Assembly: GCA_024641125.1 (NCBI GenBank)
Contig: JAHEDQ010000018.1
Location: 1 to 36,047, forward strand
Source: Candidatus Competibacteraceae bacterium
Lineage (GTDB): Bacteria > Pseudomonadota > Gammaproteobacteria > Competibacterales > JAHEDQ01
Direction: 5' to 3'
DNA length: 36,047 nt
This document shows, in pieces, positions 1,186 to 25,874 of the stretch. A program made the translations under genes and the position numbers. How positions within the stretch are numbered: the first letter of the stretch is position 1; each line of letters starts with the position of its first letter. The notes beneath the pieces are model-generated. The model had not been told where the DNA came from, did not search any database, and worked only from the letters and a program-made list of their open reading frames with translations.

Positions 1186-3468
1186 TCATCGCCGTTTCAG
1201 GTACCAGACCTGATGCCCGGCCATTACGTAGTCTTGCTCATTCAGGCCCGATCTGGCTGGCTTGGTGTTCTCGAAAACGCGAAAGCAGGCCGTCTGTCCC
1301 CGGGTGAGAGCGTCGAATCTGAGGCACAGCGTGTCGGCTTCCACCGTAGCCGTCCCGGTCTCAGAAACACCCGGTCGATACTGAAGTTTAGCAGTCCCGC
1401 CGCCGCGCAAGGTCAAATGTCCAGACGATCTGCCTTCCCGCTCGGTCAGGACGAAGTCGATACCTTCCAGCCAGGCGTGCAAGCTGGCGCTGCTCACCTG
1501 CTGGCCCGCTTCCCGTGCTGGATCGAAACCGTCGGCGTATCGGCTAACCCCGGCTCGCTTCAACCCCTCCTGGTAGCGCTGGGCGTCCGTCAGCCCCTCA
1601 TAAAAGGGGTGTAACTGCACACCTTCCAGGTTGAAGCCGGGCGCCCAGATGTCGCCGTCTATGGCCAGATAGGCGCGCGCCTTGTCCGCCATGCCGAGAT
1701 GCCCATAGGCGGCGGCGAGATAGTAGCTGTTACGCCAGGTGTAGCCCGCGATCTCACCTTCCGCCGCCTGCTCCAGATAGGCCACGGCCTGCCCGTATTG
1801 CCCCAATGCGAATGCGATTCTACCCAGTGTGCCGTAGTAACGGGCCGGTGGCTTGGGATCCAGCCGCACAGCGTGTTCCATGGCTTCCAGCGCCTCCTCA
1901 TGCTGCCCTATCGCGGTGAGCACATTGGCCTGGGCCTCGAACACACGGGAATCACCCGGTTCCAGATCCACCGCCCGGTTCACATGGGCAAGGGCTTGCT
2001 CGAAATTGCGCTCGGCCAGCGCGACTTGCGCAAGCGCCAGTTCCGGCAGTGCCATGGTCGGTTCCAGGGCCGTGGCCTGGCCCGCAAGCCTAATTGCCTG
2101 GCGTCGCGATACGGTTGGGGGTTCCACCCAGTCGTCCCAGTACTGGTTGCCGCCAAAATCCAGGGCGTAGTTCATCGCCAGTGTGGCATAGGCTTCAGCG
2201 AATCCGGGGTCGAGATCGATCGCCTTTTCCAATGCGTAGTAGGCGAGGCGGATATTGCGACGGGTGCCTATCTCCATCGCGCGCCGCCCCCGCAGATAGT
2301 ACTCGTACGCTTCCAGGTTGTCGGTTGGTTGCCGTGCCAGCTTCTGGGCATCGGCGGTGTTGAGTTCCAGGGCGAGTGCCGTCACGATTTGCCGCTTGAC
2401 CTCGTCTTGAACGTCGAACACGTCGTCCAGAACGCGATCATAGCGTTCCGCCCAAAGGTGCCCATCGGTCTCGGCGTCAATCAGCTGAGCGTTGATTCGG
2501 ATGCGATCCGCCGCGCGCCGGACGCTACCCTCCAGCACATACCGGACCCCCAGTTCCCGCGCGACATCGCGCACTTTGATCGCCTGACCTTTGAAGGTGA
2601 ACACAGAGTTTCGGGAAACCACGAAAAGGTCCGGGAGTTTGGCCAGGTCCGTGATCAGGTCTTCGGTTAGACCGTCTACAAAGTACTCCTGCTCGGCGTC
2701 GTCGCTGAGGTTTGAAAACGGCAGCACCGCGATCGAGGGGCCATCGGGTTGTTGCGCCTCAGTGGATACTGTCGCGGTCGCCTGTATTGCCGGGGTCGGC
2801 GCGGGCGGATTGAGTTGCCAATACGCGATCGCCCCGATCGCAGCGCATCCTGCACCGACCCCGACCAGGGCAAGGGTTCGGCGGCCCGACGGCCCAGAGC
2901 GCCGGGACCGACCGTCGCCCACCTCGTTCAGCAACCGATAGGCGCGAACCGGTTCGGTGATGTTCTTAACCCGTTGCTCGCCCAGAAATCCATAGCCGTA
3001 GGGCAGCTTATTGCCCAGTGCATCGTAGACGCCGCCCGAGATACAGATCCCGCCGGGCTCGGCCAGGGCCTCCAGGCGTGCCGCGATGTTGACGCCGTCC
3101 CCGTAGATGTCCTCGCCGTCGACGATGACATCGCCCAGATTGATCCCGAGCCGAAACACGATCAGCGGTTGTTGCGGTTGTTCCGCGTTCCGCTGAGCAA
3201 TGCCGCGTTGGAGCTCGACGGAACAGCTTACCGCGTCCACCACGCTGGCGAACTCGAACAGTGCCCCGTCTCCCATCAACTTGACGATGCGGCCGTGATA
3301 CCGTTCGATAAGCGGTTCGATGAGTTCCCGCCGGTGGGCATTCAATCGCGCGAGTGTGCCGACCTCATCAACGCCCATCAGGTGGCTGTACCCCACCGCG
3401 TCTGCCAGAACGATCGCCGCAAGACGTCGTTCGGCTCGTTTGTCGTTCAATCCAGAGTCTTGGGCCAT
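1186..3468 (-). CDS. Class III adenylate cyclase with TolB-like and TPR domains
   Basis: 760-residue membrane-anchored protein. Residues 12-180 form a class III nucleotidyl cyclase domain. It keeps both metal-binding Asp residues (D23 in ADAVGYS, D67 in MGDGALFEF), the adenine-selecting pair K63 and D120 (EDIYGDGVN), and the transition-state residues N127 and R131. ATP is therefore the expected substrate and cAMP the product. One transmembrane helix follows at about 199-219, then a TolB/FlgO-like domain at about 245-360 (SIAVLPFSNLSDD, LEGSVRR), then tetratricopeptide repeats to about 690. This architecture is common in proteobacteria; the cyclase would be cytoplasmic and the TolB/TPR part periplasmic. 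I chose the ATG at 3468 because the domain begins soon after it; an upstream in-frame start at 3528 would add 20 Arg-rich residues of no family resemblance. Confidence 0.88.
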   Translation of the reverse strand: MAQDSGLNDKRAERRLAAIVLADAVGYSHLMGVDEVGTLARLNAHRRELIEPLIERYHGRIVKLMGDGALFEFASVVDAVSCSVELQRGIAQRNAEQPQQPLIVFRLGINLGDVIVDGEDIYGDGVNIAARLEALAEPGGICISGGVYDALGNKLPYGYGFLGEQRVKNITEPVRAYRLLNEVGDGRSRRSGPSGRRTLALVGVGAGCAAIGAIAYWQLNPPAPTPAIQATATVSTEAQQPDGPSIAVLPFSNLSDDAEQEYFVDGLTEDLITDLAKLPDLFVVSRNSVFTFKGQAIKVRDVARELGVRYVLEGSVRRAADRIRINAQLIDAETDGHLWAERYDRVLDDVFDVQDEVKRQIVTALALELNTADAQKLARQPTDNLEAYEYYLRGRRAMEIGTRRNIRLAYYALEKAIDLDPGFAEAYATLAMNYALDFGGNQYWDDWVEPPTVSRRQAIRLAGQATALEPTMALPELALAQVALAERNFEQALAHVNRAVDLEPGDSRVFEAQANVLTAIGQHEEALEAMEHAVRLDPKPPARYYGTLGRIAFALGQYGQAVAYLEQAAEGEIAGYTWRNSYYLAAAYGHLGMADKARAYLAIDGDIWAPGFNLEGVQLHPFYEGLTDAQRYQEGLKRAGVSRYADGFDPAREAGQQVSSASLHAWLEGIDFVLTEREGRSSGHLTLRGGGTAKLQYRPGVSETGTATVEADTLCLRFDALTRGQTACFRVFENTKPARSGLNEQDYVMAGHQVWYLKRR

Positions 3469-3820
3469 TTGCACAGATCGCGGACCGCAGCGGTGGGCTG
3501 CATCGCCGCGACGGCGCCTCCCCACCATTTGAATCCTGGCAGTATAGACTGCTCGCAGGCTGCAGCCCCGGAAAGTCAGAGGGATTGGGGATTTCGGATC
3601 AAGTTGAAAAAGGACGCCTGGCAGCGCGAGGCGCAGTCCGGGTTGCGGCCCAATAGGAGGTATTGGACGGCGGCAGGATCCGGCCAGACACCAAAAGGGT
3701 TATACGCAACCGCGTCACCGGCCGGTTACTTACCCACGGGCGACTCTCACCTTTGGCAGTCCGGCTCGGTGGATGCACACGTCCCAGTAGCCCAACTCAT
3801 TCGATGCCCGCAGGGGCAAG
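3469..3820. other. Gap between the cyclase gene and the esterase pseudogene; nothing recognised
   Basis: About 350 bp with no supported gene on either strand. Reading frames running through it continue antisense frames of the cyclase gene and show no family resemblance. It should hold the promoter of the minus-strand cyclase-kelch pair, but I could not pick convincing -35/-10 boxes. Confidence 0.4.
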
Positions 3821-4270
3821 CTATCTCCGAATTGGCGCCAGGCTGTTCCTGTCGAACAGATCGTCCACGTTTTCCAGTTTCAGAAACCGGGTCTCGCCGG
3901 ACCAATCGTCGACCCGGTCATTGCCGGTGACGACATACACGTTCCCGTCCTTGTCAATGGCGGTTCCCTCGGGCTTGTCGCTGATCCAGCGCCGGTTCGC
4001 CTAAAGATTCAAGATCAGGTCGTATACGCGTTTCTCGTCCGCCATTACGCCGTCTGCCGCGTCGGCGGCATCGACCCGGACCAGGGTCTTCAGCGCCGCG
4101 AAATCACCGGTGCGATTATCGCGTTCGATGACCACGTAGCTGCCATCCCCCACCCAGGTGATTTTCGACAAACCGACCCAACTTGCGTTGGTGTGAGTCG
4201 GCGAAAGTTGGATCTTCAGTATGAACGGATGTTGAGTGTGGATAAATCTGCCACTCACGCTGTTCACGTA
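3821..4270 (-). pseudogene. Decayed 3' end of a phytase-like esterase gene, interrupted by an in-frame TAG
   Basis: The minus strand encodes the C-terminal region of the 'esterase-like activity of phytase' family (PF13449 type). First comes a part with WVGLSKITWVGDG and VVIERDNRTGD, ending VYDLILNL at a TAG (4003-4001). After that stop the same frame carries on without a shift through DKPEGTAIDKDGNVYVVTG, NDRVDDWSGETRFLKL and on to a second TAG at 3823-3821. In intact relatives these blocks are contiguous, with the final block (EGLAID.DG..YVVTDNDGVDDSSGET type) closing the propeller. The N-terminal majority of the family is missing: upstream of about 4270 the frame stays open to 4423 but no longer resembles it. 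I read it as a 5'-truncated pseudogene with a nonsense codon. Exact ends are approximate. Confidence 0.75.
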
Positions 4271-9344: not shown

Positions 9345-10679
9345 ATGAGATCATCTACGCGCACTCTTTTGACGCGACTGTTGGTCATAGGTGTTTCCTA
9401 CGCTGCAATTGGCACCATGCCGATCACAGCCCAGAGCGAACCAATAGGAGACGAGTTCCAAGTCAATTCAACGACCCTCGATCACCAGCGGGCGCCGGAC
9501 GTGGCAATGGATGGTCAGGGCGATTTTGTCGTTGTGTTTCAGAATTGGCTGGCCGGCACCGGCGCCAACGTGTCCGCTCAGCGTTATCGCTCGAACGGTG
9601 AACGGCTGGGGGGCGAGTTTAAGATCAATACCACCGCGAACTCCGACCTTACCCTGCCGGCCATCGCCATGACGCCCAATGGCGACTTCGTCGTCGTCTG
9701 GCAGGATTTCGGCGACGACGGCTCCGGCTTCGGGATTTTTGCCCAGCGATACAGTTCCGACGGTCAGGCGCAAGGTCCCAACATTCCGGTCAACACGACG
9801 GTCGAAGATGCTCAGCGACGCGCGGACGTCGCCATGAGCGACAGCGGCAATTTTGTGGTGGTCTGGGAAGACGATACCGTTGGCAACAACAAACGCGGCA
9901 TCCGTGGCCAGCGCTTCGATGCGTTTGGTTCTCAGCAAGGATCCGAGTTCGACATCAGCACCGATCCGGATATCGATCATACCTATCCCAAGGTGGCCAT
10001 GGACACCCTGGGTAATTTCGTTGTTGGCTGGTCGGCAGGCACCGTGGGGGCAAACCAGGACGTGGTGTTCCGTCTGTTCGACCCGAATGGGCTGCCCCGC
10101 GGACAGCCTACTCAGGTCAACGTCACCAGCAAAATGGATTCGGCCTCGGGTGTCGTCAACAACATGAGCATTGACTCCGACAGCCTGGGGAACTTTGTCG
10201 TGGCGTGGCGAGCGGACAACTACTCAGGTCCCGGCATCCCGGGTCTGGCCGTCGGTATCCTGGCGCGAAGATACGACAAGAATGGGAATCCGCTCGGTGC
10301 ACCGTTCGAAGTCCATACAGATCGAGCAAGTACAACCGGGGCACCGGAAGTCGTGGCGTTGCCGGACGGCGAATTCGCTATAGCCTACGAGGCAACGGAT
10401 GACAGTCTAACCGGCATCTTTGAGCGGGCTTACAGTTCGAATGGGCAGCCGATCGGACCGGCGGCCCAACTCAACACCACGACTTACTTGGTTCAAAGCC
10501 GCCCGGCCGTCGCCCTGAATGGGCGCAGCGGGGGTGTCGTCGCGTGGCGGGCCACCTTTGATCAGGACGGTGACCGGGACGGCGTCTTCGCCCGCTTGTT
10601 CGCATATGACGATGGCGTGTCCAGCGAGAATCGTGTGTTGAAGACCGTATGTGCTGTGGAAGGTGTATGTAGCGAATAG
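9345..10679 (+). CDS. Secreted repeat protein, probable beta-propeller
   Basis: 444 residues with a signal peptide (about 1-31, ending ITAQS) and about seven degenerate repeats of 50-60 residues. Each has an Asp/Gly turn before GDFVVVWQ or GNFVVVWE, then an acidic Gly-rich loop (DDGSGFGIF), then AQRYSSDGQ.QG..F.VNT. The periodicity and the alternating hydrophobic VVVW strands suggest an extracellular beta-propeller or beta-helix. The acidic loops could bind calcium; that is inference. The C-terminus has two cysteines (TVCAVEGVCSE) and no visible sorting motif. ATG 9345 has GGGGGAG just upstream. No enzymatic motif is visible. Confidence 0.8.
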   Translation: MRSSTRTLLTRLLVIGVSYAAIGTMPITAQSEPIGDEFQVNSTTLDHQRAPDVAMDGQGDFVVVFQNWLAGTGANVSAQRYRSNGERLGGEFKINTTANSDLTLPAIAMTPNGDFVVVWQDFGDDGSGFGIFAQRYSSDGQAQGPNIPVNTTVEDAQRRADVAMSDSGNFVVVWEDDTVGNNKRGIRGQRFDAFGSQQGSEFDISTDPDIDHTYPKVAMDTLGNFVVGWSAGTVGANQDVVFRLFDPNGLPRGQPTQVNVTSKMDSASGVVNNMSIDSDSLGNFVVAWRADNYSGPGIPGLAVGILARRYDKNGNPLGAPFEVHTDRASTTGAPEVVALPDGEFAIAYEATDDSLTGIFERAYSSNGQPIGPAAQLNTTTYLVQSRPAVALNGRSGGVVAWRATFDQDGDRDGVFARLFAYDDGVSSENRVLKTVCAVEGVCSE

Positions 10680-19196: not shown

Positions 19197-19540
19197 GCCG
19201 TTAGTAACCGCGGGTGACCTGTATACCGGGTGGCCGAATGGGCACGACACCGTTTTCGGCTTTCGTGCCCTTGCTCCAAGAAGAACCGGCTCCCAAGGGA
19301 TATGCGGGGGGCGGCGCACAGAGCGTGTCCGCCCAAATCCGCCGCGTGGGGTCGGCAGGCGAGCCAGATTGTGCCCTTGACGTAGAAACAACTTGCCGCG
19401 GATCATGGTTGCCACTGCAAAACTCAGCATCCTTTGGCTGAACTTTTGGTCGGCTGCTCGATTGCGTCACTCGCACAGAGGCGATGGCCAGCACGGCCTT
19501 TTCTCCGGTTAACCATGCCCGCATATCGCGAGAGGCTGAG
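19197..19540. other. Gap of about 340 bp; no recognisable gene
   Basis: A minus-strand frame with a stop at 19201-19203 runs through most of this gap (peptide ending PIRPPGIQVTRGY) but overlaps the next gene's start region, lacks a clear start and matches no family I know. The right end should contain the promoter of the oxygenase-like gene. Confidence 0.35.
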
Positions 19541-20425
19541 ATGGAAGCGCACAGTGTCCTGGCCAACGTCACGCCGGATCAGGTTAGCCTCGATCCTTAC
19601 CCCCACTTTGTGGTGGACGATTGCTTGCCGGCCGCCTACTTTAACGCGCTGGCTGCCAGCTATCCTTCGAACCAGGTCATACTCGATTACTGCAGGAGCC
19701 ATGAGGATCGTCGGTTCAACTTCGTCGAGGGAGCGGCGCGGGCGAATGACCGTTATGACGTGTCGGCGTATCAGGCGATCGAGCATCCCGATCTGCTTTC
19801 TGACATCTGGCTGAAATTCATCCAATATCACACGTCAAGCGCTTTTTTCTCCGAAGTGGTGGCGGTCTGCGGGGATGCGATCCGGCGCGTCTACCCTGCC
19901 CTGGAGGACACCATCGGTCGTCCGCTGGAGACAATGAGTACCGGCATCCGATACCGCTCGGATTGCGACGTCTCTCTTGACTGTCAGGTCGGCATAAACA
20001 CACCGGCTGAATCCCGATCCAGCGTACGCCGCGTGCACGTCGACGCCCGCGAAGAGTTGTTTGCCATTCTGCTCTATTTCCGCGACCCGGCAGACGACAC
20101 CGCGGGGGGGAATCTTGAGATTTGCCGCTGGAAAAACCCGCATCGTAAACGGTTTCGCCGGTCGGAAGTCGATGAGGTGGATGTCGAGCTATTGGAAACG
20201 GTCGAGTACAAGGCCAATCGCATGGTGATGTTCATCAACTCGCAGGACTCCCTGCATGCAGTAACGCCCAGGGATCCGTCGCCCCACACACGCAAGTTGG
20301 TCAACATCATCGGAGAGGTGGACAAATCGATACCCCGGGGTTTGTTCGCCCTGCCGAAGAAAAAGGATTTGGATTACTTTCGCAAAAAAATCGCGTCGAA
20401 AAGGAAGAAGCTACTGGGTGTCTGA
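19541..20425 (+). CDS. 2-oxoglutarate/Fe(II)-dependent oxygenase-like protein
   Basis: About 294 residues. The double-stranded beta-helix core carries an iron triad: H-x-D in RRVHVDAREELFAILLYF, the distal His in SLHAVTP, and an Arg in PHTRKLVNIIGEV placed to bind 2-oxoglutarate. GGNLEICRW is the usual strand between. The N-terminal DPYPHFVVDDCLP motif is typical of prolyl-hydroxylase-like relatives that act near glycosyl or sulfotransfer genes. The substrate is unknown. The C-terminus is very basic (KKKDLDYFRKKIASKRKKL), which could bind nucleic acid or phospholipid. Start chosen at ATG 19541 (GAGAGG five bases upstream) over ATG 19484, whose GAGG lies too close. Confidence 0.8.
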   Translation: MEAHSVLANVTPDQVSLDPYPHFVVDDCLPAAYFNALAASYPSNQVILDYCRSHEDRRFNFVEGAARANDRYDVSAYQAIEHPDLLSDIWLKFIQYHTSSAFFSEVVAVCGDAIRRVYPALEDTIGRPLETMSTGIRYRSDCDVSLDCQVGINTPAESRSSVRRVHVDAREELFAILLYFRDPADDTAGGNLEICRWKNPHRKRFRRSEVDEVDVELLETVEYKANRMVMFINSQDSLHAVTPRDPSPHTRKLVNIIGEVDKSIPRGLFALPKKKDLDYFRKKIASKRKKLLGV

Positions 20426-20463: not shown

Positions 20464-23115
20464 TTAAACCGTCCAGGGTGCCGGTGCATCGGTGTCGATC
20501 TGATACCGGGATATGGCCTCCAGCAGTGTTTCCCTCGGCATTGCGCCGTCTCGGGTGAGCTGATCCAGCGCAGCCAGAGTGATGTGTCTCCGGTCCACCT
20601 CAAAGAAACGCCGCAGGGCTTCACGGGTGTCGCTGCGTCCAAATCCGTCCGTGCCCAGGGTGGTAAGTCGGCCCTCCACATAGGGTGCAATCAAATTGGG
20701 TACTGCGCGCACATAGTCGGTGGCAGCCACCACCGGATCGGCGCCCGGCAGCAGGCGCGCCAAGTGGGAGACCTCCAGGTCCTTTCCTGGGTTCAGTCGG
20801 TTGCGGCGTTCCACGGTCCGTGCATCCCGCTCCAGTTCCGAAAAGCTGGTGGCGCTGAACACTTCAGCAGACACATTCCAGTCATCACGCAGCAGCTGTG
20901 CCGCGTACTCCGCCTCCCGCAGAATGGCGCCGGCGCCCAGTAGCCGCACCCGGCCGACCGGGCTGTCGGGCGTTGCCTCAGACAATCGGTACAGACCCTT
21001 GATCAGATCTGGCTCGATCCCCTCGGGTTGCGATGGATTCGGGTAATTTTCATTCATGGCGGTGAGGTAGAAAAACTCGTCAACCTGCGCCTCCATCATC
21101 CGTCGGGCGCCATAGTCGAACAGAACCGCGATTTCATAGGCGTAGCAGGGGTCGTAAGCGCGGCAATTGGGGACGGTGGTTGCGATCAGATGGCTGGCGC
21201 CATCCTGGTGCTGCAGCCCCTCGCCGCCCAGCGTGGTTCGGCCCGCGGTGGCGCCAATCAGAAAGCCGCGAGCGCGCTGGTCGGCCGCAGCCCAGATCAG
21301 GTCCCCCACCCGCTGGAAGCCAAACATGGAATAGTAGATGTAGATCGGCAACATGGCCGTGCCGTGGACGCTGTAGGCGGTGGCGGCGGCCGTCCACGAG
21401 GCGAGGGCGCCGGCCTCGGTAATTCCCTCCTCCAGCATTTGTCCGGTTTCCGATTCCCGGTACAGCAGCAGACTGGATGCGTCTTCGGGTTCGTACAGCT
21501 GCCCATCGGGCGCATAAATGCCGATCTGACGAAACAGGCTCGCCATCCCGAAGGTACGCGCCTCGTCGGCCACGATGGGAACGATACGAGGACCCAGGCG
21601 CTCATCGCGCAGTATCGTGGCCAGCATCCGAACGAAGGCCATGGTGGAAGACATGTCCTTGCCGTGTGCTTCAAGCGCGAACTTGCCATAGGTGCCCAGC
21701 GGTGGCACCGGCACCGGCTCAGCCTGTTGTCGTCGAGTTGGCAGCGGCCCGCCCAGCGCTTCGCGCCGCGCTTTGAGGTATCGCATCTCCTCGCTGTTGG
21801 CAGGCGGTTTTACGAACGCCAGTGCCTCCACCTCTGCATCGGACAGGGGCAATGCAAAACGGTCGCGGAACGTGAGCAGCCCGTCCAGTTTGAGTTTTTT
21901 GGTCTGGTGGGCCGTCATCCGTGACTCACCCGCGTCTCCCATGCCAAAGCCTTTTTTCGTTTTGGCCAGGATTACCGTCGGTTGCCCGGCGTGCGCGCGG
22001 GCGGCTGCAAAGGCGGCGTGAAGTTTTCTGAAATCGTGACCGCCACGATGCAGCTGGTCGATGTCGTCGTCGCTCATGTGGCGGACAAGGGCGGCCGTTT
22101 CCGGGTCCTCCTGGAAAAAATGGCTGAGATTGTAGGCGCCGTCCTTGGCCCCCAGGGTCTGGTACTTTCCGTCCACCGTGGCGGCGAAGCGGCGCAGCAA
22201 GGCGTGGTGGGTATCGCGTGCGAACAGCGCGTCCCAATCGCTGCCCCAGAGCACCTTGATCACGTTCCAGCCGGCACCTCGAAACAGGCCCTCCAGTTCC
22301 TGGACGATCTGGCTGTTACCCCGCACCGGTCCATCCAATCTTTGCAGATTGCAGTTGACGATGAAGGTCAGATTGTCGAGCCGCTCCCTGGCCGCCAGGG
22401 AAAGTGCGGCGATGGACTCCGGCTCGTCCATCTCGCCGTCGCCGAACACGCCCCAGACATGGCGGCCTTCGGTAGTCCGCAGACCGCGGGCCTGCAGATA
22501 GCGCAGAAAACGCGCGTTGTAGATCGCGCTGATCGGTCCGATGCCCATGGATCCGGTCGGGAACTGCCAGAAACCCGGCATCAGCCACGGGTGGGGGTAG
22601 GAACAGAGCCCCCCACCCGCCACTTCCTGCCGGAATCTGGACAAGGTGCCTTCGTCCAGGCGGCCCTCGAGAAAGGCACGGGCATATACACCCGGTGCGG
22701 AATGGGGCTGAAAGTAGACCAGGTCACCGTCTTCGCCGGCGTTGAAAAAATGATTGAAGCCGACTTCGAATATTTCGGCCGCCGACGCATAGCTGGCGAT
22801 GTGCCCGCCCAGATCGCCATACGCCTGATTGGCCCGCATCACCATCGCAAGCGCGTTCCAGCGCAGCATGGCCGTGATCCGCTGCTCGATCCTGATATCG
22901 CCCGGATACGCCGGTTGCTGCTCCAGTGGGATCGAGTTGCGATAGGGAATATAGGGCAGCGGCCGGCGTTTTAGTTCACGCTCTTCGGCATGGTTTTCCA
23001 GCGTATTCAGCAGCGACACGGCAGCGTCCGGTCCACGCTGGGTGATCAGAGAGTCAAGGGCGTCCATCCATTCCTGTCGTTCCAGGTCGAAGTCATCGTC
23101 TTCATCGGTCGCCAT
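20464..23115 (-). CDS. aceE: Homodimeric pyruvate (2-oxoacid) dehydrogenase E1 component
   Basis: 883-residue thiamine-diphosphate enzyme of the AceE type, full length. It has GGHIASYASAAEIFEVGFNHFF at the N-terminal domain and the ThDP motif FGDGEMDEPE...NCNLQRLDGPV near residues 225-260. HRGGHDFRKLHAAF carries the active-site His region, and RTTLGGEGLQHQDG lies in the middle domain. It decarboxylates pyruvate and reductively acetylates a lipoyl E2. No E2 or E3 gene is adjacent, so it must borrow them, or it may be a paralogue such as the 2-oxobutyrate-preferring MdeB type. ATG 23115 has AGGA seven bases upstream; a GTG at 23139 is possible. Confidence 0.9.
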   Translation of the reverse strand: MATDEDDDFDLERQEWMDALDSLITQRGPDAAVSLLNTLENHAEERELKRRPLPYIPYRNSIPLEQQPAYPGDIRIEQRITAMLRWNALAMVMRANQAYGDLGGHIASYASAAEIFEVGFNHFFNAGEDGDLVYFQPHSAPGVYARAFLEGRLDEGTLSRFRQEVAGGGLCSYPHPWLMPGFWQFPTGSMGIGPISAIYNARFLRYLQARGLRTTEGRHVWGVFGDGEMDEPESIAALSLAARERLDNLTFIVNCNLQRLDGPVRGNSQIVQELEGLFRGAGWNVIKVLWGSDWDALFARDTHHALLRRFAATVDGKYQTLGAKDGAYNLSHFFQEDPETAALVRHMSDDDIDQLHRGGHDFRKLHAAFAAARAHAGQPTVILAKTKKGFGMGDAGESRMTAHQTKKLKLDGLLTFRDRFALPLSDAEVEALAFVKPPANSEEMRYLKARREALGGPLPTRRQQAEPVPVPPLGTYGKFALEAHGKDMSSTMAFVRMLATILRDERLGPRIVPIVADEARTFGMASLFRQIGIYAPDGQLYEPEDASSLLLYRESETGQMLEEGITEAGALASWTAAATAYSVHGTAMLPIYIYYSMFGFQRVGDLIWAAADQRARGFLIGATAGRTTLGGEGLQHQDGASHLIATTVPNCRAYDPCYAYEIAVLFDYGARRMMEAQVDEFFYLTAMNENYPNPSQPEGIEPDLIKGLYRLSEATPDSPVGRVRLLGAGAILREAEYAAQLLRDDWNVSAEVFSATSFSELERDARTVERRNRLNPGKDLEVSHLARLLPGADPVVAATDYVRAVPNLIAPYVEGRLTTLGTDGFGRSDTREALRRFFEVDRRHITLAALDQLTRDGAMPRETLLEAISRYQIDTDAPAPWTV

Positions 23116-23189
23116 GTCCGGTTCCTGTGATGTTGTCACGCCATACGCGCCTCTGGCAGCGGCTGCGCAGGCCTATCTCATCTCTTGCA

Positions 23190-24077
23190 TCAGGCCGTAT
23201 GCAGGCTGAAAAACGATTTCATCGCTTCCGCCGTTTCCGCTGGCGCTTCCTCCGGCAGGAAGTGCCCGCAGTCTATGCCTTGCGCGGTGACATCGACGGC
23301 GCGTTCCCGCCAGGTTGCGGGCACGTCATACAGGGCCTCCATCAGTCCGCGCAAGCCCCACAGCACCAGTAACGGACATTCAATGCGGCGCCCGATATCC
23401 GACGCATCGTGCTCCAGGTCGATGGAGGCGCCGGCCCGGTAGTCCTCGCAAGTGGCATGGATGGTGGCGGGATCCCGGAAACAGCGTAGATACTCGGCCA
23501 GCGCATCCGGGTCTTGCGCATCGGGTATGCGGCCCCAGCGTTTGAGCTTCTCGGTCAGATAGAAATCCGGGTCCGCGCCGATCAGGTGTTCCGGCAGCCC
23601 GCCCGGCTGGATCAGAAAAAACCAGTGATAGTAGGCGGTCGCCAGGCGTTGGTCCGTGGTTTGGAATACGGTAAGGGTGGGGACTATATCGAGTACGGCG
23701 GCAGCGACGATCCGCCGGGGATGATCCAGGGCCAGCCGGTGTGTGACCCGTCCGCCCCGGTCATGTCCGGCCACGGCGAAGCGCTCGTAGCCCAGCGCCG
23801 CCATCAGGCCTGCCTGATCCGCTGCCATGGCCCGTTTCGAGTAGGCCGTATGGCTTGCATCGCTGGTGGGTTTGGCGCTGTCGCCGTAGCCGCGCAGGTC
23901 CGGACACACCAGGGTAAAGGCCTGCGCCAGATCCGATGCGATCTTGTGCCACATCACGTGGGTCTGTGGATAGCCGTGCAGCAGCAGCAGGGGCGGCCCG
24001 GAACCGCCGATGCGGCAATGCAGCTCCAAATCGCCTATGTCGATCCGTCGAGACTCGAAGCCTTGGAACAAGTCCAT
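23190..24077 (-). CDS. Fluoroacetate/haloacetate dehalogenase-like alpha/beta hydrolase
   Basis: 295-residue alpha/beta hydrolase. The nucleophile motif is AGHDRGGR with D106, R107 and R110. D130 and H272 (CGHFLPEE) complete the triad, and H151-W152 (YYHWFF) and Y213 (CEDYRAGASIDLEHD) line the halide pocket. Against the structurally studied Rhodopseudomonas defluorinase RPA1163, as I recall it (D110, R111, R114, D134, H155, W156, Y219, H280), every residue is kept at offsets of 4 to 8. Hydrolysis of a haloacetate to glycolate and halide is the best prediction. Start chosen at ATG 24077; a GTG at 24128 would add 17 residues. It lies between fhs (111 bp) and aceE (74 bp) on one strand. Confidence 0.85.
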   Translation of the reverse strand: MDLFQGFESRRIDIGDLELHCRIGGSGPPLLLLHGYPQTHVMWHKIASDLAQAFTLVCPDLRGYGDSAKPTSDASHTAYSKRAMAADQAGLMAALGYERFAVAGHDRGGRVTHRLALDHPRRIVAAAVLDIVPTLTVFQTTDQRLATAYYHWFFLIQPGGLPEHLIGADPDFYLTEKLKRWGRIPDAQDPDALAEYLRCFRDPATIHATCEDYRAGASIDLEHDASDIGRRIECPLLVLWGLRGLMEALYDVPATWRERAVDVTAQGIDCGHFLPEEAPAETAEAMKSFFSLHTA

Positions 24078-24188
24078 GCGTCTGTCCGCCAGTGGTGAGA
24101 AATTGAACGGCCGCTCATTGCGGCCCACAGCACCAGCTTAGCGGACCGCTGCCGGGGTTTGCCACACCCGGCAGCGGCGGTCGAGAAC

Positions 24189-25874
24189 CTAGAACAAACC
24201 CACCACGTTGCCTTGGGCGTCCAGGCCGATGCGGTTGGCTGCCGGCTCTTTTGGCAAGCCGGGCATGGTCATGATGTCGCCGCACACCACCACCAGGAAC
24301 TCGGATCCGCCCGCGAGCCGCAACTCGCGGATGGGGACCACATGGTTCGATGGCGCACCCTTCAGGTTGGGGTCGGTGGAGAAGCTGTACTGGGTCTTGG
24401 CCATGCACACCGGGAAGTGGCCGTAGCCGGCTTCCTGATACTGGGCGAACTGGGCCCGCACTTTCTTGTCTGCAATGATGCCGTCGGCGTGGTAGAGATG
24501 GGTGGCGATGCTTTTCACTTTGTCCCACAGGGGCATATCGTCTGAGTACAGCGGAGCGAACTGGCTGGTGCCGCCCTCCACCAGGTCGGAAACAGCTTGA
24601 GCCAGGGCCTCCGCGCCTTCACCACCATCCGCCCAATGGCTGCAGACGATTGCGGTGGCGCCGTTCTCGGCACTGATCTCCTGTATTGCAGCGTGCTCTG
24701 CATCGGTATCGCCGCCGAATCGATTGATGCACACCACCACCGGTACGCCAAAGGTCTTCACGTTGCGGATGTGCCGAATAAGGTTGTCACAGCCGTGGCG
24801 CACGGCCTCTACGTTCTCGGGCCCCAGGCCCTTCAGATCGACCCCGCCATGCATCTTGAGCGCGCGAACCGTGGCTACGATAACCGCCGCGGCCGGTTTG
24901 AGACCGGCCTTACGGCATTTGATGTCGAAGAATTTCTCCGCCCCCAGATCGGCGCCAAAGCCGGCCTCGGTGACCACGTAATCGGCCAGTTTGAGAGCCG
25001 TCTTGGTGGCGATGACCGAGTTGCAGCCGTGGGCGATATTGGCAAAGGGGCCGCCATGGATAAACACCGGATTGTTTTCCAGAGTCTGCACCAGGTTCGG
25101 CATAAAGGCGTCTTTCAGCAGCACCGTCATGGCGCCGTCCGCCTTGAGTTCGCGGGCCGTAATCGGTTTGCGATCATGGTTGTAGCCGATGATGATGTTG
25201 CCCAGGCGACGTTGCAGATCTTCGAGATTGGTGGCCAGGCAAAAAATCGCCATCACCTCCGAAGCCACGGTAATGTCGAAACCGTCCTCGCGCACATAGC
25301 CGTTGCCGACGCCGCCCAGGGAACAGACGATCTGCCTCAGGGCACGGTCGTTCATGTCCACCACCCGCCGCCAGCTGATCCGGCGGCTGTCGATGTCCAG
25401 AGGGTTGCCCCAGTTGATGTGGTTGTCGATCATGGCCGCCAACAGGTTGTTGGCGGCGCCTATGGCGTGGAAGTCACCGGTGAAGTGCAGGTTGATGTCC
25501 TCCATCGGCACGACCTGGGCATAACCGCCGCCGGCGGCGCCGCCCTTGACCCCGAAACAGGGTCCCAGGCTGGGTTCGCGCAGGCACATGACAGTCTGCT
25601 TGCCGATGCGGTTGAGCGCATCGCCCAAGCCTATGGTGGTGGTGGTCTTACCTTCTCCTGCGGGTGTCGGTGAGATCGCAGTGACCAGTACCAGTTTGCC
25701 GTCGGGCCGCTGGCCCACTCCATCGGTGAAGTCCCGGGTGACCTTGGCTTTGTGATGGCCGAACTGGTATAGGTGCTTGGACTCGATGCCGAGCTTCCCC
25801 GCGACGTCCTGTATCGGCAGCATGCTGGCCGCACTGGCGATTTCGATATCCGTCAAGCCACTTTGCTTCGCCAC
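24189..25874 (-). CDS. fhs: Formate-tetrahydrofolate ligase
   Basis: 561-residue cytosolic enzyme, full length, that makes 10-formyl-tetrahydrofolate from formate, ATP and THF. The P-loop-like [11 protein letters not shown] is at residues 70-80, followed by [45 protein letters not shown] and [15 protein letters not shown], all family landmarks. GTG 25874 has GGAGG six bases upstream. It heads a minus-strand run with the dehalogenase-like and aceE genes, and is preceded by a 265-bp leader/promoter region with several inverted repeats. One-carbon supply for purine or serine synthesis, or growth on C1/C2 acids such as glycolate, would be its role. Confidence 0.95.

Follow-up and report, generated by a model that had tools for sequence, protein, structure and literature searches.

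The window, that is, the whole stretch of 36,047 nucleotides analysed here, contains a gene (P0001) encoding an alpha/beta hydrolase of the fluoroacetate dehalogenase type (Table 1). Its reading frame extends on the minus strand from an in-frame ATG at 24077 to a stop codon at 23190-23192; the plus strand across 23190-24077 is interrupted by stops. The coordinates given in a preliminary description of this DNA are thus retained, and the strand is corrected to minus. An alternative GTG upstream, at 24128, would make the protein 17 residues longer. We prefer the ATG form, since Alr0039, FA1 and similar homologues start no more than 2 residues from the same place.

Table 1. The P0001 gene and the codons of its catalytic and pocket residues, with their counterparts in RPA1163.
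Feature	Position	Strand	Counterpart in RPA1163	Length or basis
Fluoroacetate-dehalogenase-type alpha/beta hydrolase gene (P0001)	23190..24077	minus		295 aa
D106, nucleophile	23760..23762	minus	D110	alignment
R107, carboxylate binding	23757..23759	minus	R111	alignment
R110, carboxylate binding	23748..23750	minus	R114	alignment
D130, catalytic acid	23688..23690	minus	D134	alignment; Thr in P. aeruginosa 4b9a
H151-W152, halide pocket	23622..23627	minus	H155-W156	alignment
W181, mobile pocket Trp (Trp180 of H-1)	23535..23537	minus	W185	alignment
Y213, halide pocket	23439..23441	minus	Y219	alignment
H272, catalytic base	23262..23264	minus	H280	alignment

Genomic neighbourhood

P0001 is flanked on the minus strand by genes for a formate-tetrahydrofolate ligase (fhs, 24189-25874) and an AceE-like dehydrogenase (20464-23139). 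An operon of fhs, P0001 and the aceE-like gene, all on the minus strand, was considered and rejected: none of the 7 neighbours tested has a relative (E ≤ 1e-15) near any of the best 80 loci, where the test covered flanks of up to 6 kb and many contigs are shorter. The neighbours that do recur in the best 80 loci look like gene order shared within clades; a membrane-protein-like ORF is the most widespread of them, at 18 loci, and a neighbour cluster of 57 loci is apparently the P0001-type gene itself read in an antisense frame. No promoter-like site was found near P0001. Terminator-like sites number 7, near the level of shuffled sequence (4.5, sd 2.0), and one of them lies between fhs and P0001 at 24109-24125. 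The idea of foreign DNA was likewise dropped, as the GC content over P0001 (0.636) is like that of its surroundings (0.58-0.64) and repeats of note are absent.

Several other proteins of the window deserve mention. The AceE-like protein scores higher with the NCBIfam model AKGDH_not_PDH (1487 bits) than with aceE (1389 bits), both above the cut-off, and its 2-oxo acid substrate is uncertain. The gene at 19484-20425 gives a weak match to 2OG-Fe(II) oxygenases (28.2 bits, cut-off 27) and has no NCBIfam family. A guanylate-cyclase domain and TPR repeats are combined in one protein of 780 residues (1186-3528), and a protein of 444 residues (9345-10679) has no Pfam match at E 0.001.

Catalytic and pocket residues

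P0001 was compared in a MAFFT alignment with six reference enzymes deposited or described as fluoroacetate dehalogenases, namely NOS0089, DAR3835, RPA1163, FA1, H-1 of pUO1 and D4B of 9c9f. R111 and R114 of RPA1163 we take to be its carboxylate-binding Arg pair. The available sections of the review PMC11022551 name the RPA1163 residues D110, D134, H155, W156, Y219 and H280. The preliminary description had listed eight RPA1163 residues as present in order and at nearly constant spacing, and the alignment bears this out on both counts: D106, R107, R110, D130, H151, W152, Y213 and H272 are all found, and the offset from RPA1163 runs from −4 (up to H151/W152) through −6 (Y213) to −8 (H272). All eight are identical in the six reference enzymes. 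P0001 hence has the Asp-His-Asp catalytic triad (D106, H272, D130), the carboxylate-binding Arg pair (R107, R110) and the His-Trp-Tyr fluoride pocket (H151, W152, Y213). A serine esterase was rejected as a candidate, because position 106 is occupied by Asp and not by a Ser nucleophile.

A ninth position, W181, corresponds to Trp180 of H-1, described as the mobile pocket Trp in the available part of PMC12955510; its counterpart W185 of RPA1163 is named in structure entry titles. Trp occupies this position in five of the six reference enzymes and Arg in 9c9f, such that all nine pocket residues match in NOS0089, DAR3835, RPA1163, FA1 and H-1. The set of eight is, by itself, neither sufficient nor strictly necessary for activity: SlDefH is functional although a Ser stands at the site of the nucleophile Asp (available part of PMC13230308).

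Sequence and structural relatives

The best match of P0001, by sequence as well as by structure, is not RPA1163 but Alr0039 of Nostoc, followed by DAR3835; Alr0039 is NOS0089 according to PMC11022551 (available sections). A phmmer search against the PDB yields 404.7 bits for Alr0039 (3qyj, E = 2.3e-120), 361.1 and 357.6 bits for the DAR3835 chains 8sdc and 8sdd (the latter titled as a D107-glycolyl intermediate), 324.3 bits for 4nvr, 322.6 bits for FA1 and 311.3 bits for RPA1163 (E = 6.4e-92). E-values of this size for Alr0039 and RPA1163 exclude a chance resemblance. By similarity, P0001 is not placed among esterases or epoxide hydrolases, the outcome that the preliminary description had named as speaking against a dehalogenase: the defluorinases range from 404.7 to 296.8 bits, compared to 263-260 bits for the P. 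aeruginosa 'probable epoxide hydrolase' (4b9a) and at most 134 bits for all remaining matches.

An AlphaFold2 model of P0001 built from 40 aligned sequences has a mean pLDDT of 96.0 and a pTM of 0.94. Its top Foldseek match is 3qyj (TM 0.96/0.98, rmsd 0.7), then DAR3835 (8sdc) and RPA1163 (3r3u); VIA Z scores are 49.6 for 3qyj, 48.7 for 4nvr, 48.3 for 8sdc, about 48 for RPA1163, 46.7 for 9c9f and 43.9 for the P. aeruginosa protein. The predicted fold is that of an alpha/beta hydrolase with a cap, and its nearest solved structures are fluoroacetate dehalogenases. In terms of modelled fold alone, active enzymes and 4nvr are not told apart.

NOS0089 (Nostoc sp. PCC 7120, 3QYJ) is 60% identical to P0001 across 288 residues, has the nine pocket residues and the oxyanion motif HGYP in common with it, and superimposes on the model with an rmsd of 0.7-0.8 Å; it differs in being cyanobacterial and assayed. 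DAR3835 (Dechloromonas aromatica RCB, 8SDC/8SDD; 55% identity) also has all nine residues and HGYP, but forms a separate supported pair with locus L107 in the trees. RPA1163 (Rhodopseudomonas palustris, 3R3U; 51% identity) keeps the nine residues but has HGFP where P0001 has HGYP, as well as indels ahead of Y213 and H272. FA1 (1Y37) and H-1/DehH1 of pUO1 (49% and 45% identity, respectively) again have all nine but constitute their own starred clade. The pUO1 sequence used, WP_011137958.1, is labelled 'alpha/beta hydrolase' in its record and is a candidate for H-1 because it has 294 residues, is encoded on this plasmid and is close to FA1; this dehH1 candidate is plasmid-borne and lies two genes from crcB, near a LysR gene. 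Two further structures retain seven of the eight residues: 4B9A (46% identity, same fold) differs by a Thr in place of the catalytic Asp, and 4NVR, a 'putative acyltransferase' of Salmonella (52% identity), by a Trp replacing the pocket His and a Gln at the position of W181.

Such losses recur in other relatives, and P0001 shows none of them. In the alignment the pocket His is Trp in 4nvr, Klebsiella L098 and Acetobacter L103; the catalytic Asp is Thr in 4b9a and Caballeronia L089; and the second Arg is Leu in Rhizobium etli L101 and Tyr in Pantoea L102. The His-to-Trp relatives (L098 at 1360-2274, L103 at 1477-2370 and 4nvr) form a starred clade from Klebsiella and Acetobacter plasmids and Salmonella, and the Klebsiella plasmid gene adjoins leuD and a fumarylacetoacetate hydrolase gene. 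The proteins with Thr (4b9a and L089 at 2974-3879) retain the fluoride pocket; those lacking the second carboxylate Arg (L101 at 1507-2370 and L102 at 1501-2367) have a gap at the position of W181. Among ten hand-picked plasmid loci (L089-L091 and L097-L103), four keep all eight residues.

Phylogeny and distribution

A quick tree of 69 rows comprised every third of the best 80 loci, all references and the class loci, with L084 left out. The window protein joins L001 (84) and then L004 and L017 (88), which are loci of Kiloniellaceae and Ectothiorhodospiraceae, and the backbone is mostly without resolution; a more careful tree of 32 rows likewise leaves its branch within the family without resolution. 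The characterised defluorinases are not one clade: FA1/H-1, DAR3835 and NOS0089 belong to three different groups, and RPA1163 has no partner in the 32-row tree. In the same tree the variants with a lost residue fall into separate starred groups of two or three, none of which includes the window protein. The assignment of the DNA to a gammaproteobacterium is supported, and its order is that of Competibacteraceae: a genome of the same order carries locus L094, which in the tree is identical to the Competibacteraceae record L080. No 16S gene was found in the window's genome assembly.

All eight residues occur in each of the best 80 of at least 589 confirmed genome relatives, and 77 of these 80 also have Trp at position 181; this search is biased towards the residue set, because its query peptides included one spanning the His-Trp pair. 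The set is also complete in 20 of 20 class relatives at E ≤ 1e-40 (one of these, L094, is the sequence identical to L080). Matches were found in 15 of 369 genomes of the class, or 14 of 368 without the window's own, and in 5 of 59 genomes of nearer relatives, or 4 of 58 others. Since all 80 and all 20 relatives carry the set and only 14 of the 368 other class genomes match, we regard it as a trait of the family that is patchily distributed, and not as rare within the family.

Functional interpretation

P0001 is very probably a member of the fluoroacetate dehalogenase family whose nearest assayed relative is NOS0089. By homology with that family, its substrates are most likely fluoroacetate and other small 2-halo acids, which it would hydrolyse via an Asp-ester mechanism. 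R107 and R110 would grip the carboxylate of the substrate. D106 would attack in an SN2 step that expels the halide, with H151, W152 and Y213 stabilising the fluoride as it leaves, and H272, paired with D130, would activate a water such that the glycolyl-aspartyl ester is hydrolysed. The expected products are halide and glycolate, or glyoxylate in the case of difluoroacetate. The genome encodes several FAD-oxidase_C proteins, a family that includes the glycolate oxidase subunit GlcD.

C-F hydrolysis by P0001 in vitro is likely. The preliminary description had called it plausible with RPA1163 in mind; it is now better supported, because two closer relatives are reported defluorinases. NOS0089 and DAR3835 are listed as acting on fluoroacetate, difluoroacetate and two further substrates (PMC11022551, Table 2 and available text), and purified DAR3835 has been employed as a defluorinase (available part of PMC12350541).

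In nature the substrate may not be fluoroacetate but chloroacetate, bromoacetate or a different 2-substituted acid. A stronger form of this view, that P0001 is by nature a dehalogenase of chloroacetate, bromoacetate or another 2-halo acid, that its activity on C-F bonds is weak or negligible and that its pocket was inherited and not selected for fluoride, we consider unlikely. Chloroacetate and bromoacetate are among the substrates reported for the family (PMC11022551), and neither a riboswitch nor a gene related to fluoride was recognised next to P0001, in contrast to the dehH1 candidate of pUO1 with its nearby crcB. Nor did we find an operon or regulator pointing to a fluorinated substrate. 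The single copy of crcB in the genome lies on another contig (C272), and the fluoride riboswitch RF01734 has no match in the window's genome. The missing link to fluoride is, however, weak evidence, as the riboswitch was present in only 4 and CrcB in only 10 of 14 control genomes. Against this view stand the defluorination by both NOS0089 and DAR3835 and the retention of W152, whose counterpart Trp150 in FA1 is reported to be needed to defluorinate but not to dechlorinate (PMC11022551, available sections).

An epoxide hydrolase or esterase that merely resembles a fluoroacetate dehalogenase is far less probable still. These enzymes belong to the same superfamily, and 4b9a was deposited as an epoxide hydrolase; yet 4b9a has Thr where P0001 has the catalytic Asp, and epoxide hydrolases outside the family stay at or below 134 bits, compared to 311 for RPA1163. 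In an AU test, a topology holding the window protein with five outgroup rows is not rejected (p-AU 0.87) and has a likelihood above that of the free tree, and grouping the window protein with the 4b9a pair and the outgroup gives p 0.10. Because the outgroup branches are 3-6 changes per site long, the value of 0.87 bears on the position of the root, which is not fixed, and says little beyond that. A haloalkane dehalogenase is scarcely conceivable: the match to PRK03592.1 is weak (63.7 bits, cut-off 241), the genome has a separate true enzyme on contig C93, and all three haloalkane dehalogenases compared have HGNP and Asp-Trp and lack the His-Trp pocket, a contrast rightly drawn in the preliminary description, where P0001 has HGYP and Asp-Arg. 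That separate gene (G000:C93:25133-26005, L120) scores 428.6 bits against the same cut-off of 241.

P0001 adds to a known family, being 60% identical to a reported defluorinase, and neither its site nor its neighbourhood offers anything new. The titles and abstract openings of the literature found contain no assayed member from the window's order. We tentatively suggest that the patchy NOS0089-like set, spread over Cyanobacteria, Alphaproteobacteria, Chloroflexota, Actinomycetota and an organism of the Competibacteraceae order, might be kept for a natural 2-halo acid yet to be recognised and that P0001 might also turn over difluoroacetate. If active, P0001 would be one more candidate to join the few C-F hydrolases that have been assayed. 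Since the pocket in its complete form is frequent and found in scattered phyla, the question to ask of this family is that of the natural substrate, and not whether the residues are present.
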